From a virus: a DNA stretch of 22,412 nucleotides. Both the position numbers and the translations under genes were made by a program. Within the stretch, counting starts at the first letter, position 1; each line of letters opens with the position of its first letter. The stretch is from positions 1 to 22,412 of IMG/VR virus record IMGVR_UViG_3300006810_000439; one strand, written 5' to 3'. The notes under the pieces are model-generated. The model did no database searches. It was not told the DNA's origin and was given only the letters and a program-made list of their open reading frames with translations. Shown piece after piece: positions 5,901 to 13,763 of the stretch.

Positions 5901-7607
5901 ATGACAATAGAACAAACATTAAATGAAAACAGAATACAACTCAAACATCATCAAGAAGGAAATCAAAAAGTTAAATGTCCTCAATGTCAGCCACCTCATA
6001 ATCCAAAAGATAACCCTTTATCAGTTACTATTAATGAAGATGGGGTGGTTTGGAATTGTCATCACTGTGATTTTAAAGGTGGAAAAAAAACTGGAAATAT
6101 ATTTAGACCTTATCAAAAACCTGTTTATGTTGCACCAACAAAATTAGAACCGAAACAAGAATCTTTTATGGTTAACTTTTTTAAACAAAGAGGTATAAGT
6201 GAATCTACGATAAACGAATATAAAATCTATAATGAAAATAATTGGATTGGTTTTCAATACTTTGATGAAAACGGAAAATTAACAAACATTAAATACAGGA
6301 CTGTTGACAAACAGTTTAGACAATCAGCTAACACTAAATCTATCCTCTACAACTATGACAAAGTATGCAAAGAAGAAACAGTTATATTTACTGAAGGCGA
6401 GATGGACGTTTTATCTTTAGCTGAGTGTGGTTTTAATAATGCCACCACTTTACCCAATGGTGCTCCTAAAGAGTTTAAGGGCGATGAAAAAGATGCTAGA
6501 TATAAAGCATTAGAAAACTGCAAACTTAAAGCAAAAAAAATAATTTTATTTACAGATAATGATGAAAGCGGTAAAGCATTACACAAAGAACTATTACACA
6601 GGTTTGGCAAAGACTTATGTTGGTTTGTACGCATACCTGATAATTGTAAAGACGCCAATGAAGTATTAATAAAACATGGTGCTTTAAAACTTAAAGAAAT
6701 TATAGACAACGCTGAACCTTATCCTATAGACGGCTTATACACTGCAAGAGATTATTTTGCACAAGTGAATGATTTATATGAAGGTAATTATGAAAAGCCA
6801 ACAGAGATAGGCTTAGAAGGTCTTGATGACATTTATAAACCAATGACTGGTACGTTTACAGTTATAACAGGTATTCCCAATCATGGTAAATCTGCTTTTC
6901 TTGACCAATGCTTGTTAAAACTTGCTGTAAATCATGGTTGGTCTTTTGCTTTGTTTTCACCTGAACATTCAACATCAATGCATATAAGAAGACTGGTGCA
7001 GATGTATTTAGGAAAATCATTTGATGAAGGTTTTTCTAACCGCATGACAAAAGCGGAACTAAACAAAGGATTAGATTTTATTCATAAACATTTTTATTTC
7101 ATAGAAACAAAAGATAGCATTCCTTCAATTGAATTAATTTTAAATATTGCTAAGAGTGCTATATACAAGCATGGTGTTAAAGGATTAGTCATTGACCCTT
7201 TTAATGAAGTGTCTGCTGTAAGACAAGGCAACCAAAGAGAAGATGAACATATTAGAGATTTTATTTCTTTATGCAAAAGATTTACTAGAGTATACGAAGT
7301 TATATGTTGGGTTATAGCACACCCAACTAAATTGCCTAAATCTAATGATGGTTCTTATAGCCCTCCTACTGCTTATGATATAAGCGGTGCTGCACATTGG
7401 CATAACCAAGCAGACGCGGTTTTAACAGTTCACAGAGACTTTGATGAAAACTCAACAAGCGTTATAACTAGAAAAATAAGAGAACAAGGTTTATATGGAA
7501 AGATTGGGGAAGCCAAATTTACTTATAATTTAAACACCCATGGCTTTACTAAGTATGAAGAAAAAGATGCAGACTGGGAAGATTATACAGCTAGTTGGGA
7601 TAATTAA
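5901..7607 (+). CDS. T7 gp4-like bifunctional DNA primase-helicase
   Basis: The 568-residue protein would unwind DNA and lay down primers at the fork. The N-terminal zinc ribbon has C26-P-Q-C29 and C53-H-H-C56. The Toprim primase fold follows with FTEGEMD (163-169, E165), LPNGAP and LFTDNDESG (216-224), and DANEVL (251-256). The RecA-like hexameric helicase has Walker A TGIPNHGKS (323-331), LFSPEHS (351-357), Walker B LVIDPFNE (429-436, D432) and a late HWHNQADAVLTVHRD region (499-512). All key residues look intact. The ATG at 5901 is preferred over an in-frame TTG at 5886 because GCAGGATA precedes it. Its stop overlaps the stop of the converging glycosyltransferase gene. Confidence 0.93.
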   Translation: MTIEQTLNENRIQLKHHQEGNQKVKCPQCQPPHNPKDNPLSVTINEDGVVWNCHHCDFKGGKKTGNIFRPYQKPVYVAPTKLEPKQESFMVNFFKQRGISESTINEYKIYNENNWIGFQYFDENGKLTNIKYRTVDKQFRQSANTKSILYNYDKVCKEETVIFTEGEMDVLSLAECGFNNATTLPNGAPKEFKGDEKDARYKALENCKLKAKKIILFTDNDESGKALHKELLHRFGKDLCWFVRIPDNCKDANEVLIKHGALKLKEIIDNAEPYPIDGLYTARDYFAQVNDLYEGNYEKPTEIGLEGLDDIYKPMTGTFTVITGIPNHGKSAFLDQCLLKLAVNHGWSFALFSPEHSTSMHIRRLVQMYLGKSFDEGFSNRMTKAELNKGLDFIHKHFYFIETKDSIPSIELILNIAKSAIYKHGVKGLVIDPFNEVSAVRQGNQREDEHIRDFISLCKRFTRVYEVICWVIAHPTKLPKSNDGSYSPPTAYDISGAAHWHNQADAVLTVHRDFDENSTSVITRKIREQGLYGKIGEAKFTYNLNTHGFTKYEEKDADWEDYTASWDN

Positions 7608-8380
7608 GTTCTAGAACTAGCGTATGCTTTTTTCCATGATATGACTACGTCTTTTCTTGAACCCCAACCCCATGCTGTTTTTGTTTCTTTTTCAACAACT
7701 CTTACAAATTCAGGATGCATAAGTTTCATTTTTTCAGCAGCTTTTGCTTGAACTTCTTGGGTTCTATACGTTGAACAACCGCCATCAGCGTTTGACTGTA
7801 CTTGTCCTTGTGCATAAAAATAACTAACAATATTTGGAACGCCATTCCTTAATAACTGTAAAGCAATATCAAAATCTTCCATAACTTCAACACGACCATG
7901 TTTCGCCCTGCCTTTACATATATTTAAGTCATAAGCCAACACTCTGATATATCTTGTATTTTCCTCAAAAAGTTCTTCAACACTATTTCCTACTTTTCTA
8001 TTGTTACCATTTCTATCACTTATACCGCAATGCCCATAACCCATGTCCATATATCTATCAAGTAATTCAAATATTTTGTAATATTCGTTTGGTTCACAGT
8101 TTCTTAACTTATGACCATCACCTGAACGAATATGAAATTTTAAATCATCATCAAGCATACATATTCTTGGGTCATCACTTGTGTCCCATATATATTTTCT
8201 CACTGCTGAAATACCTTTTAGATGACTTGGAACAACAAGTAAGTTTTTATGCACTTTTCTATAATCATCAGCTTCGTTTTTATCTACCACAAGAACGCAT
8301 TGTTCCCTTAAGTCTTCAGGCATAAACTTAAGGGTTCTTTGGTTATCTACTCTGCTTTTAGTCGGTATGAATATCTTCAT
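7604..8380 (-). CDS. TET-associated-type glycosyltransferase (GT-A fold), predicted DNA base glycosylation
   Basis: The protein has 258 residues, with the start set at the ATG at 8380 behind AGGAG. It opens as a GT-A nucleotide-sugar-binding fold (MKIFIPTKSRVDNQ), carries the metal-binding acidic motif MLDDDL (residues 75-80), then VMEDFDIALQLLRNG (166-180) and GGCSTYRT (200-207). This set matches my memory of the TET-associated glycosyltransferase family found beside TET/JBP genes in phages, where it is predicted to add sugar to hydroxymethylated bases in DNA. A TET/JBP gene is two genes upstream in the same operon, which strongly supports that reading. It overlaps the upstream gene by 23 bases and is the last gene of the operon. 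Sugar and base identity are unknown. Confidence 0.8.
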   Translation of the reverse strand: MKIFIPTKSRVDNQRTLKFMPEDLREQCVLVVDKNEADDYRKVHKNLLVVPSHLKGISAVRKYIWDTSDDPRICMLDDDLKFHIRSGDGHKLRNCEPNEYYKIFELLDRYMDMGYGHCGISDRNGNNRKVGNSVEELFEENTRYIRVLAYDLNICKGRAKHGRVEVMEDFDIALQLLRNGVPNIVSYFYAQGQVQSNADGGCSTYRTQEVQAKAAEKMKLMHPEFVRVVEKETKTAWGWGSRKDVVISWKKAYASSRT

Positions 8381-9137
8381 AATAATTTCTCCTGAAAATG
8401 TCATCTTCTGTGCATTTTGCACCATATTGTATTTCAATGATTTTACATACTACGCTATATGGATTAGTTATTTGGTGCCATGTTCCTACTGGTACGATAA
8501 AATAGTCATGTTTATGCAAGGTTAATTTTTCATCATCTACATTGTTTTGATTATGAAAGATATCGCACTTACCTTGACTGACTAACCATATTTCTGAACG
8601 TTTATCATGTTTTTGATAACTCATACCCTTGTAAGGTTCAACAATTAATTCTTTAACTTTGACACCATCATCTTCGTATAAATTAAAATATTCTCCCCAT
8701 ACTTTATCGTATTTATCGTATTTCCAATCTTTGAGAATCCAAGATGATGAATTTTGTTTTACATTACCGCCAATACCTGATAATAATTTTATACCTGATA
8801 CTAATATTTCAGGAACATTGTTATTGTTTCTGTCTCCGCCATTACAAAATAAAATATTATCTTCAGGGTATCTTCTTTTTATTTCTTCAAGCCCATTAAT
8901 TGCTGTTCCGTGTTCATCATTTTCATTTTTAATAACTTGGTCAACATTTTTTATAGACTCTAATATTTTTTTTCTTTCAGAAAAAGGCATAAACGCTTTA
9001 CCCTTTTTATTTATTAACCAATCATCATCATTTAACAAAATTATAAGTATATTGCCTTTCTTTGACGCTTCTTCTATTAATGAAATATGTCCTGAATGTA
9101 CAGGGTCAAATCCACCGCTTATAACAGCAATGTTCAA
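8358..9137 (-). CDS. Nucleotidyltransferase-cupin fusion, predicted activated-sugar supply
   Basis: The protein has 259 residues and two domains. Residues 1-~135 are a cytidylyltransferase-like (HIGH superfamily) domain: VISGGFDPVHSGHISL with H14xGH17, MPFSERKKIL (50-59), CNGGDR (98-103) and a serine-rich SSSW (130-133) where the family has its second nucleotide-binding motif. Residues ~160-245 are a cupin resembling the C-terminal domain of GDP-mannose pyrophosphorylase/mannose-6-phosphate isomerase: GMSYQKHDKRSEIWLVSQG (H177, E182) and VPVGTWHQITNP (H221). The combination suggests making or isomerising a nucleotide sugar, and its place between TET/JBP and glycosyltransferase genes suggests that it feeds the latter. 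The start is TTG at 9137, with TTGA overlapping the TET stop; GGGGAT lies upstream at somewhat long spacing. The substrate is not predictable. Confidence 0.75.
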   Translation of the reverse strand: MNIAVISGGFDPVHSGHISLIEEASKKGNILIILLNDDDWLINKKGKAFMPFSERKKILESIKNVDQVIKNENDEHGTAINGLEEIKRRYPEDNILFCNGGDRNNNNVPEILVSGIKLLSGIGGNVKQNSSSWILKDWKYDKYDKVWGEYFNLYEDDGVKVKELIVEPYKGMSYQKHDKRSEIWLVSQGKCDIFHNQNNVDDEKLTLHKHDYFIVPVGTWHQITNPYSVVCKIIEIQYGAKCTEDDIFRRNYYEDIHTD

Positions 9138-10051
9138 TTAATTTTATCCCCTTCTTTTCTATTTTTAGCCCTGTCAAGCTCTTGTTGCATGGTTCCGCAA
9201 TGTTTTATATTTTCTCTGTAATAACAAACAACTGAAATCCTTTCAAATGGTGCTTTAGATGTCATTTTTGTATTTCCATGAACTTCATGCACGTCAAAAT
9301 AACAAACATCACCACTACTTAAATCAAAAGCACAATCATACCTTGGCATAACTGTATATCCGCCTTCATACTTACCTGCACTTAAAACTGCTAAATTTCC
9401 TAAACCTTCTTTCAAGTCACCTGCATCTGTGTGATAAGCAGTTTGAAAATTTTTATTGACTGTTACTGTGCTAAAAACTGTATCAGTAATAATAAAATCT
9501 TTGCTACTTTGGTCTACAACTTTTTTTTGTGCTTCATATCTTTCAGGACACGCTTCTTCAAACATATGACTGATATATTTTAAAAAAGGTATTGAGTTAC
9601 TAAATAATTCTCTATTTTTTTCAGTGAATGCAGTTTGTCTACAATAAGGAAACCTTGTGTTTCTATCAAAATAACCTGCGATACCTGAATTAACTTTTTT
9701 AGCACGCATGACCTTACTTAATGTGCCGTCTTGTTTTATTTCTCTGTATCTGTGCCTAGAAATAGTTTTATGTCCAACTTGGTCATCACTATCTAGAGGA
9801 CCTGCTGCTGTACCTCTATTTTCTGATTTAGTTGCTGCCCCTCTTAGATTATAATAAGCAGTTTCACATACTTTTTTGGGTATCTTACCTTTTCTAAAAA
9901 AGAATAATGGTTCGCCATCTTCGGTATAAGCATTACAATCATCATTAATTAAAATAGAATAATCATCATCTGTAGCATAACGACCTTTTAAATCATTGGC
10001 TTCTTCTTTTGTTAATTTGGGTTTCAAATAATATTTAGGTACTTCTTTCAT
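9134..10051 (-). CDS. TET/JBP-family 2-oxoglutarate/Fe(II) dioxygenase acting on DNA bases
   Basis: The 305-residue protein carries the TET/JBP signature. Fe(II) ligands are seen in TAYHTDAGD (H207, D209) and FDVHEVHGN (H258). The 2-oxoglutarate-binding arginine is R271 in FERISVVCY. KYEGGYTVMPRYDCAFDL and SSGDVCYFDV fit the double-stranded beta-helix between them. The N-terminal part is basic, with a GAATKSENRGTAAG loop. This family oxidises the 5-methyl group of thymine (JBP) or 5-methylcytosine (TET) in DNA; phage members pair with glycosyltransferases to build hypermodified bases. The start overlaps the ParB-like gene by 17 bases. Catalytic residues are complete, so an active enzyme is expected; whether it acts on T or 5mC is open. 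Confidence 0.88.
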   Translation of the reverse strand: MKEVPKYYLKPKLTKEEANDLKGRYATDDDYSILINDDCNAYTEDGEPLFFFRKGKIPKKVCETAYYNLRGAATKSENRGTAAGPLDSDDQVGHKTISRHRYREIKQDGTLSKVMRAKKVNSGIAGYFDRNTRFPYCRQTAFTEKNRELFSNSIPFLKYISHMFEEACPERYEAQKKVVDQSSKDFIITDTVFSTVTVNKNFQTAYHTDAGDLKEGLGNLAVLSAGKYEGGYTVMPRYDCAFDLSSGDVCYFDVHEVHGNTKMTSKAPFERISVVCYYRENIKHCGTMQQELDRAKNRKEGDKIN

Positions 10052-10667
10052 GTTCTTTTTTAACTGCTGTAAAAACTATATCTGAATAATTATCTACTTT
10101 ATATTTTTCTTTAAGATTCATCAACATACTTTTAAATTCTTCCAGAGTTTCAATATCATATAAAAGCATAAATTGTTTTATGTTTGTTTCAGGTATATCA
10201 AAATCTGAGCTTATGTTTAGGCTTTCAAATTCTTCATCAACATCAGGTTCATCAAATTTTAAAAAATTTTCTTTTGTGATTTTTTGTATTTCATCAAAAT
10301 CAAATCCTGTTAATTTTAAATCAAAATCGCCTTCAACTAATTTATTAAACTCTAATGACAAAGATTCAGAATCCCATTCTGAAAAATCTTGTGCTTTATT
10401 ATCCATAATTCTAAAAGCAGTTTTTTGTTCTTCAGATAACCCTGAAGCTATTTTTACTGGAACTTCATCAATTTCTAATAACTTGGCTGCTTTTATTCTT
10501 GAATGACCTGCAAGAATAACCATATCTTCATCTACAACTATTGGTACTTGCCATCCAAAGTTCTTAATGCTTTCAGCAACCCTTTGCACAGTTTTTTCAT
10601 TTAACCTTGGGTTGTTTTCATAAGGTATTATTTTTTCAACTTTTGTTAAAGTGGTTTTAAATTCCAT
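10035..10667 (-). CDS. ParB-like (ParB/sulfiredoxin fold) protein of the DNA modification operon
   Basis: The protein has 210 residues. Residues ~8-95 form a ParB-N domain: IIPYENNPRLNEKTVQRVAESI, then FGWQVPIVVDE, ILAGHSRIKAAKLL (around 50-64) and EEQKTAFRIMDNKAQDFSEWD. In phages this domain usually sits at the N-terminus of a DNA methyltransferase, but here the rest (~110-210, acidic, ending in KYKVDNYSDIVFTAVKK) has no methylase motifs such as DPPY. ParB-like domains are also known companions of TET/JBP genes. Possible roles are DNA targeting or NTP/DNA processing for the modification. The start overlaps the HTH gene stop (TAATG), with GGAG upstream. Fold confidence is high; function is uncertain. 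Confidence 0.8.
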   Translation of the reverse strand: MEFKTTLTKVEKIIPYENNPRLNEKTVQRVAESIKNFGWQVPIVVDEDMVILAGHSRIKAAKLLEIDEVPVKIASGLSEEQKTAFRIMDNKAQDFSEWDSESLSLEFNKLVEGDFDLKLTGFDFDEIQKITKENFLKFDEPDVDEEFESLNISSDFDIPETNIKQFMLLYDIETLEEFKSMLMNLKEKYKVDNYSDIVFTAVKKEHERST

Positions 10668-10897
10668 TAGTCTCTACTCCAAATAGGTGGTGTTACATCA
10701 TAAAAATCGTTTGGTTGTACTTTACCTTCAGTAACTTCATAAAGCAAAAGCATATCTTTTTTTCTTGGAATACGAGCTCCCAATATCCATTTAGCTAAAG
10801 TACCCTGTGGAACTTTTATTCCTTTTGCCATTTCAATCTCATCAATAAATGACATTTGTGTATGTTCTTGTATTTCTAAGTATTCTTTAAGTTTCAT
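10667..10897 (-). CDS. Cro/C-protein-like HTH regulator, first gene of the modification operon
   Basis: This 76-residue protein is a single XRE-type helix-turn-helix. Helices 2 and 3 are seen in MSFIDEIEMAKGIKVPQGTL and AKWILGARIPRKKDMLLLYEV, with typical Cro/YdaS-style recognition-helix residues. There is no extra sensor or cleavage domain, so it would act as a simple repressor or activator. It heads the five-gene modification operon, like controller proteins of restriction-modification systems. The region just upstream holds overlapping promoters for both directions and a degenerate ATTCCAAA element, suggesting autoregulation. The Shine-Dalgarno is weak (AAAAGA). Confidence 0.8.
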   Translation of the reverse strand: MKLKEYLEIQEHTQMSFIDEIEMAKGIKVPQGTLAKWILGARIPRKKDMLLLYEVTEGKVQPNDFYDVTPPIWSRD

Positions 10898-10979
10898 AAA
10901 AAAATCTTTTAATTATTCCAAATATGAATTATACTGAATAATTATTAAGTTGAACACCCCAAAAGGGGAGGAAAATAAA
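10898..10979. promoter_or_regulatory. Divergent control region with overlapping -10 boxes between modification and recombination operons
   Basis: On the minus strand TATAAT spans 10933-10928, and on the plus strand TATACT spans 10930-10935, so the two -10 boxes share four base pairs and cannot be occupied at once. A plus -35 could be TTTAAT (10908-10913, 16-bp spacer); the minus -35 is weak. ATTCCAAA (10915-10922), half of the phage operator, lies inside the plus promoter spacer. In the plus leader CCCCAAAAGGGG (10957-10968) is a hairpin whose 3' arm is part of the GGGGAGG ribosome site of the gene at 10980, so it could limit translation. Confidence 0.55.
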
Positions 10980-13478: not shown

Positions 13479-13763
13479 ATGATAAACTACTTAACTAAAA
13501 AAGAATACACAGGTCAAAATATAGATATATTAATGGCTAGTGGTTACCAAGAGGGAGATTCATTCCTCACTTTTAAACAAGCATTAAAATTAGATGGCGT
13601 TACTGGTCAAACTATGAAAGGTTTGAAAAAGTGTGCTACTTTAATGTTCGTTAAAGAATATGAAGATAAAGAAACAGGAAAGATGGTTAAAAAGCCAAAA
13701 TATTTTTCTGTATTTGATGCTAACCAAATATTAGCAAGAATTGAAAACAACAAGGCATCTTAA
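13479..13763 (+). CDS. Stand-alone ArdC N-terminal-like domain (predicted antirestriction ssDNA-binding protein)
   Basis: The 94-residue protein lines up, from memory, with the ArdC N-terminal domain over nearly its whole length: EYTGQNIDILMASGY (family Y.G.N...L), SFLTFKQALKLDG (family W.T..QA..LGG), MKGLKKCATLMFVKEY (family kGekg..v.f) and KKPKYFSVFDANQI (family f.VFN..Q). The family's zinc metalloprotease half (HExxH) is absent and no room exists for it. ArdC N-domains bind single-stranded DNA, and ArdC protects incoming DNA from restriction. Here the gene has its own shared promoter and a terminator overlapping its stop codon, so it is an independent cassette. No other assignment fits as well, but the similarity needs a profile search. 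Confidence 0.6.
   Translation: MINYLTKKEYTGQNIDILMASGYQEGDSFLTFKQALKLDGVTGQTMKGLKKCATLMFVKEYEDKETGKMVKKPKYFSVFDANQILARIENNKAS

Follow-up and report, generated by a model that had tools for sequence, protein, structure and literature searches.

A five-gene operon in a marine phage fragment, predicted to oxidise and glycosylate a DNA base, probably thymine

When a phage carries a TET/JBP dioxygenase beside a glycosyltransferase and shows no C5-cytosine methyltransferase, which base do these enzymes act upon, and what do they make of it? This question is raised by the operon at positions 7604–10897 of IMG/VR record IMGVR_UViG_3300006810_000439. The full record of 22,412 bases (the window) comes from a marine phage and probably represents part of a tailed-phage genome. 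TET/JBP enzymes are thought to be phage-derived, and Iyer and colleagues are said to have predicted in 2013 that the products of phage TET/JBP enzymes feed further modification. Based on the families of the five gene products and on the neighbourhoods of their relatives, we consider it reasonably likely that, once the phage's own DNA has been replicated, the enzymes of the operon turn a pyrimidine in it into a glycosylated, hypermodified base: thymine would be converted to 5-hydroxymethyluracil (5hmU) and a sugar then added. The operon is real and its kind of function is well predicted; the substrate is probably thymine, and the product is a prediction.

The operon and its predicted products

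The region consists of five minus-strand open reading frames (ORFs), the end of each overlapping the next, as a first-pass annotation made from the sequence had described:

10667–10897, minus strand: small helix-turn-helix (HTH) protein of 76 amino acids (aa), the operon's first gene and a likely regulator (HTH_3, 15.6 bits; phrog_35)
10035–10667, minus strand: ParB_N/Srx-type protein of 210 aa, the constant upstream partner of TET (PF02195, phrog_620)
9134–10051, minus strand: TET/JBP 2-oxoglutarate–Fe(II) dioxygenase of 305 aa, predicted base oxidiser (PF12851, Foldseek matches, ligands)
8358–9137, minus strand: fusion of an HxGH nucleotidyltransferase with a type II mannose-6-phosphate-isomerase-like cupin, 259 aa from a TTG start, proposed source of the activated sugar donor
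7604–8380, minus strand: TET-associated glycosyltransferase (TAGT), GT-A fold with a DDD motif, from the likely start ATG 8380 (PF20691, phrog_842)

Profile searches placed four of the five proteins above the curated Pfam cut-offs, with the HTH protein below its own. Ratios of nonsynonymous to synonymous substitution (dN/dS) against the related contig L003 were 0.03 for TET, 0.05 for TAGT, 0.06 for the HTH gene (where dS was saturated), 0.09 for ParB and 0.10 for the nucleotidyltransferase-cupin. These matches, along with dN/dS values of 0.03–0.10, exclude chance, and all five genes are real and under purifying selection. The families first assigned by eye (TET, TAGT, ParB_N, and nucleotidyltransferase plus cupin) were thus all recovered.

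The dioxygenase matched PF12851 (Tet_JBP) at 91.6 bits (cut-off 34.9, E = 4e-26), and its family profile reached human TET2 at 3e-5. The iron ligands H207, D209 and H258 and the 2-oxoglutarate arginine R271, all four of which had been pointed out in the first-pass annotation, were indeed present and were invariant in 19 close relatives and 25 divergent sequences. A structural model gave NgTET1, CcTET and human TET2, all of them TETs, as its best Foldseek matches (E = 4e-5), at a mean pLDDT of 57 and with a low-confidence active site. Pfam, ligands and family profile agree on the TET/JBP assignment. We dropped an argument about base specificity drawn from this AlphaFold2 model, in which the active site was too weak. 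Public phage genes of this family carry labels such as "SNF2 DNA repair protein" or "DnaJ chaperone" (HTVC112P gp18, L031:7599-8507, and genes in L034, L035 and L037), so that the family is hidden from annotation searches.

For TAGT, we obtained 79.7 bits against PF20691 (cut-off 27.5, 3.8e-22) and 5.7e-51 against phrog_842 (beta-glucosyl-HMC-alpha-glucosyltransferase), a family of DNA glucosyltransferases. Both of the motifs reported earlier, LDDDL and VMEDFDIALQLL, are present, and the first two aspartates of the DDD motif were invariant in 21 homologues, the third being kept in 18. The longest ORF spans 7604–8437 from TTG 8437; since homologues begin about 19 residues later, and since ATG 8380 is preceded, at a suitable spacing, by a strong Shine-Dalgarno sequence (AGGAGAA), which TTG 8437 lacks, the start is probably ATG 8380.

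The fusion protein matched PF01467 (CTP_transf_like) over its nucleotidyltransferase domain (48 bits, cut-off 21, 1.9e-12) and PF01050 (MannoseP_isomer) over its cupin domain (66.6 bits, cut-off 23.6, 2.8e-18). In an alignment of 95 homologues, each of the 92 rows with residues at these positions had H14-x-G-H17; of the cupin ligands (QxH..E..H), Q175, E182 and H221 were invariant and H177 was present in 94 of 95 rows, the remaining row having an X. Its closest solved relative is glycerol-3-phosphate cytidylyltransferase (1.7e-11), and its scores lay below the NCBIfam equivalog cut-offs for that enzyme (57 against 165 bits) and for HldE-type heptose-1-phosphate adenylyltransferase (49 against 181). 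Many SAR86 and SAR11 genomes encode the same fusion (L118-L197, a set that includes other organisms too), partly beside polysaccharide genes, and it occurs in at least 588 viral stretches (L198-L275 examined). In one phage contig that also has an apparent DNA polymerase of its own, it adjoins a DruA-domain protein and a glycosyltransferase-like protein (L030:1334-4639).

The ParB-like protein matched PF02195 (ParB_N) at 26.8 bits (cut-off 26.3) and phrog_620 at 3.7e-48. Against the full-length ParB partition family (TIGR00180) it scored 31.8 bits, under the cut-off of 58.45, so the match is to the ParB_N domain only. It aligns with the N-terminal part of phage ParB-DNA-methyltransferase fusions (phrog_498, 3e-42; PADLOC MTase_II, 6e-28) but differs from them in having no methyltransferase domain and in having an oxidase as its partner gene. 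A reading of the locus as a defence system was rejected: PADLOC yielded only this ParB-methyltransferase match and a weak mad1 match outside the operon.

In the proposed pathway, the order of whose steps we infer, the TET/JBP enzyme would oxidise the 5-methyl group of thymine in DNA to give 5hmU, with the ParB-like protein as its putative DNA-binding or targeting partner. The nucleotidyltransferase-cupin would isomerise and activate a sugar phosphate to a nucleoside diphosphate (NDP)-sugar, and TAGT would move the sugar of this donor onto the hydroxymethyl group of 5hmU. Regulation of the operon probably falls to the small HTH protein, and the likely purpose would be to shield phage DNA from DNA-cleaving defences of the host. 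In general terms, the first-pass annotation had likewise predicted a glycosylated base made by TET and TAGT with a sugar-activating enzyme encoded by the phage, which the profiles, the fold comparison and the neighbourhoods described below support.

Genes behind the ParB-TET pair

The first-pass annotation had called this combination of genes unfamiliar, including a ParB-like protein without a methylase. We collected TET relatives from IMG/VR (573 confirmed among 600 candidate stretches, of which the best 80 were kept) and assigned the genes around them by Pfam and NCBIfam. Of the 98 loci in which a gene precedes TET, 96 have ParB immediately upstream, and the two genes overlap by a median of 20 nt; because this pairing is constant in the clade, a ParB unaccompanied by a methylase is not unusual, and the combination as a whole appears less odd than had been thought.

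The genes behind TET varied. An FkbM-type methyltransferase stood there in 22 loci; amino acid:DNA transferase (ADDT) with GATase, GNAT and kinase genes in 20; TAGT in 16; a kinase alone in 13; ADDT with a kinase in 11; TAGT with an EcbF-like phosphatase and a nucleotidyltransferase in 6; and the window's own type, nucleotidyltransferase-cupin with TAGT, in 4. Isolates show similar sets, with ParB, TET and FkbM in Pelagibacter phage HTVC112P and TET with TAGT in Nonlabens phage P12024L. In a quick TET tree with SH-aLRT support only, built from loci that are not independent and partly come from overlapping contigs, the tailoring class switches 9 times, and strongly supported branches make 7–8 of these switches unavoidable. 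The TAGT group of the window falls together with kinase/ADDT groups in a clade of 10 (support 99) in that tree. The tailoring cassette behind the constant ParB-TET pair is exchangeable.

The 5-hydroxymethyldeoxyuridine (5hmdU) kinase and amino acid/polyamine transferase are not in the window and are found in sister phages whose TET is 66–69% identical. The EcbF-like phosphatase and nucleotidyltransferase, a second and unrelated sugar-activation set, stand beside TAGT in the nearest sister phages, and a maker of sugar donors has therefore been paired with TAGT more than once.

Several further arrangements were observed behind TET. In Synechococcus phage S-CBWM1 (L037:3729-7921), TET is followed by TAGT, a capsule phosphatase and a glucose-1-phosphate thymidylyltransferase, a third type of sugar-donor set. 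In SAR11-type phages (L015-L025, L031 and others), the genes after ParB-TET encode an FkbM-family methyltransferase and a protein with an Xre-like HTH, which suggests O-methylation or another acceptor. Two loci (L009:6868-9006 and L011:8908-11046) encode a protein of 712 aa whose C-terminal half contains ADDT; its roughly 370 N-terminal residues had no Pfam match and by eye resemble a fold-type II pyridoxal phosphate enzyme.

Substrate and acceptor

The C5-cytosine methyltransferase family PF00145 was found in 0 of 61 records of the ParB-TET clade, the window among them (17 of these records are 25–54 kb long), and in neither of the complete isolate genomes HTVC112P and P12024L (0/2). In the clade of Methylophilales phage Melnitz, where an HhaI-like gene precedes TET, it was found in 39 of 39 records (0/61 vs 39/39, Fisher 1e-28) and in 58 of 66 loci its gene came immediately before TET. 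No enzyme of the thymidylate-synthase family (dUMP/dCMP hydroxymethylase type) scored above cut-off in the 15 ParB-TET clade records searched, and no N6/N4 methyltransferase was detected in 31 of 32. We thus found no phage route to 5-methylcytosine (5mC), 5-methyl-dCMP or a hydroxymethyl nucleotide. ADDT, an enzyme of the type seen in thymidine hypermodification and accompanied by GATase, GNAT and kinase genes, occurred in 19 of 40 ParB-TET clade records as against 0 of 40 in the C5-methyltransferase clade, a set with many short records, in a search that had no positive control genome, though it did give matches in the ParB-TET clade. The absence of C5-methyltransferases from the clade, together with the exchange with ADDT cassettes, favours thymine over 5mC, and the substrate is probably thymine already in DNA.

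A number of observations weigh against thymine and make host-made 5mC the main alternative, in which TET would convert the host mark to 5-hydroxymethylcytosine (5hmC) and TAGT would add a sugar, leaving glycosyl-5hmC. To our knowledge, the characterised phage TETs all act on 5mC. The residue following HxD (HxDxxD motif), which we take to contact the base in TET2 and NgTET1, is D in the ParB-TET and C5-methyltransferase clades alike, so the sequence cannot tell thymine from 5mC. The window is a 22.4-kb fragment and might miss a methyltransferase gene by truncation, and C5-methyltransferases were present in 5 of 23 SAR86/SAR11 genomes, so that host-made 5mC is possible. The C5-methyltransferase clade also has P-loop kinases (27/71) and TAGTs (10/71); Melnitz itself encodes such a kinase, and we dropped both families as markers of thymine. 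The TAGTs of T2 and T6 work on cytosine derivatives, namely glucosylated 5hmC (PMC13216743), and the phage TETs characterised by experiment are reported to use 5mC as substrate (Burke et al. 2021, as cited in PMC12730594).

We nevertheless regard host 5mC as rather unlikely. C5-methyltransferases are patchy in plausible hosts, yet TET is strongly constrained (dN/dS 0.03); the split in phage-encoded C5-methyltransferases between the two clades is complete; and ADDT partners were confined to the ParB-TET clade, of the clades tested.

Returning to thymine as the substrate, we tentatively suggest a more specific model, in which we place less confidence than in a glycosylated pyrimidine as such. 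ParB-TET may be a two-component phage thymine hydroxylase in which ParB loads or aims the oxidase, as J-binding and SNF2 domains do for JBP1/JBP2, and replaces the C5-methyltransferase found in 5mC-type clusters, with an exchangeable tailoring slot behind the pair; the window's cassette would then yield an unusual sugar and a base-J-like nucleotide. If true, this large marine clade with TET and ParB and without a C5-methyltransferase would supply the missing thymine branch and an equivalent of base J in prokaryotes, and it would offer new enzymes to write hydroxymethyluracil and sugars onto DNA.

TET might also act on DNA while the sugar handled by the nucleotidyltransferase-cupin and TAGT goes to a different acceptor, such as cell-surface or virion glycans. 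The nucleotidyltransferase-cupin family is frequent in phages and bacteria without TET, which counts against our interpretation in that its product need not go onto DNA, and in SAR86 and other marine genomes it lies near sugar dehydrogenase, Wzz and GDP-mannose dehydratase genes. In the window, however, the genes overlap within a single operon; TAGT immediately follows TET in many loci from several lineages, and its phrog_842 match is to a DNA sugar transferase. We therefore consider a separate acceptor improbable. That the dioxygenase acts on N6-methyladenine (6mA), N4-methylcytosine or RNA, in an operon for demethylation or regulation and not for protection, is very improbable, since an N6/N4 methyltransferase occurred in just 1 of 32 records and coupling to TAGT and kinase/ADDT genes suits a hydroxymethyl acceptor and not demethylation, even though the TET relative CcTET has been solved with 6mA DNA (Foldseek match 7w5p), an N6/N4 methyltransferase is encoded two genes past TET in P12024L, and such ParB domains occur fused to methyltransferases.

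Known systems and the rest of the window

The proposed logic resembles that of base J in kinetoplastids (JBP1/JBP2 and JGT), where a TET/JBP enzyme oxidises thymine in DNA, a separate glycosyltransferase adds a sugar, and extra domains target the oxidase (PMC11065753); the gene architecture of the window appears to fit. The window differs in having a separate ParB-like partner in place of the J-binding/SNF2 domain of the JBPs, a TAGT-family enzyme, a phage-borne sugar activator and exchangeable cassettes, and thymine oxidation is here only predicted.

Phage systems of TET, C5-methyltransferase and glycosyltransferase acting on 5mC are known (Burke et al. 2021, as summarised in PMC12730594). 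The Melnitz-type clusters resemble the window in having a TET/JBP enzyme, in tailoring by TAGT or a kinase and in their marine phage origin, but ParB here occupies the place that the C5-methyltransferase holds there.

In phages M6, ViI and phiW-14, thymidine hypermodifications derive from 5hmdU made before replication, on which a 5hmdU DNA kinase and transferases act (PMC6449724). Genes of the types associated with thymidine hypermodification (kinase, ADDT, GNAT, amidotransferase) make up the multi-gene cassette that occurs most often after ParB-TET in the clade. Those phages obtain 5hmdU as a nucleotide through a thymidylate-synthase-family enzyme, whereas TET would act in DNA, and the window has sugar genes without a kinase or ADDT. 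A ParB-like and TET-like pair followed by tailoring genes also occurs in Rhodococcus phage Tonitrus, announced in 2025 with ParB-like, tet-like, aGPT-Pplase2, 5-hmU DNA kinase and hypothetical genes labelled a thymidine hypermodification system (PMC11955845); its tailoring cassette is different, and the set is known there from annotation alone. In a literature search that lay outside the main phage-TET papers, we found no earlier report of the window's cassette or of the C5-methyltransferase dichotomy.

The operon is flanked by rightward genes on both sides, a primase-helicase gene whose end meets that of the operon at 7604–7607 and a divergent exonuclease-like gene beyond the HTH gene, from which it is separated by one further feature:

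10898–10949, no strand: divergent intergenic region of 52 bp between the operon and the exonuclease-like gene, a probable control region (ORF map, sequence)

A promoter scan of this region gave no sigma-70-like site above chance. The HTH protein scored 15.6 bits against HTH_3, below the Pfam cut-off of 23, and matched the phrog_35 "transcriptional repressor" at E = 0.0017; its gene has an equivalent position in the close relatives L003-L014 and is missing from more distant ones. The label "C-like regulator" given to it earlier is not established by so weak an HTH match.

Two guesses at the host were set aside: the nucleotidyltransferase-cupin is 57% identical to a SAR86 protein, but in its tree the window copy falls in a clade where phage and bacterial sequences are mixed, with no close partner, and the best match of TerL (50%, a Microcystis phage) indicated no host. 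Other genes of the window encode portal, terminase, replication-initiation, primase-helicase, endolysin and spanin proteins, and the gene at 13479–13763, with a weak match to the anti-restriction family phrog_7245 (E = 1.4e-5), is possibly a second counter-defence gene.

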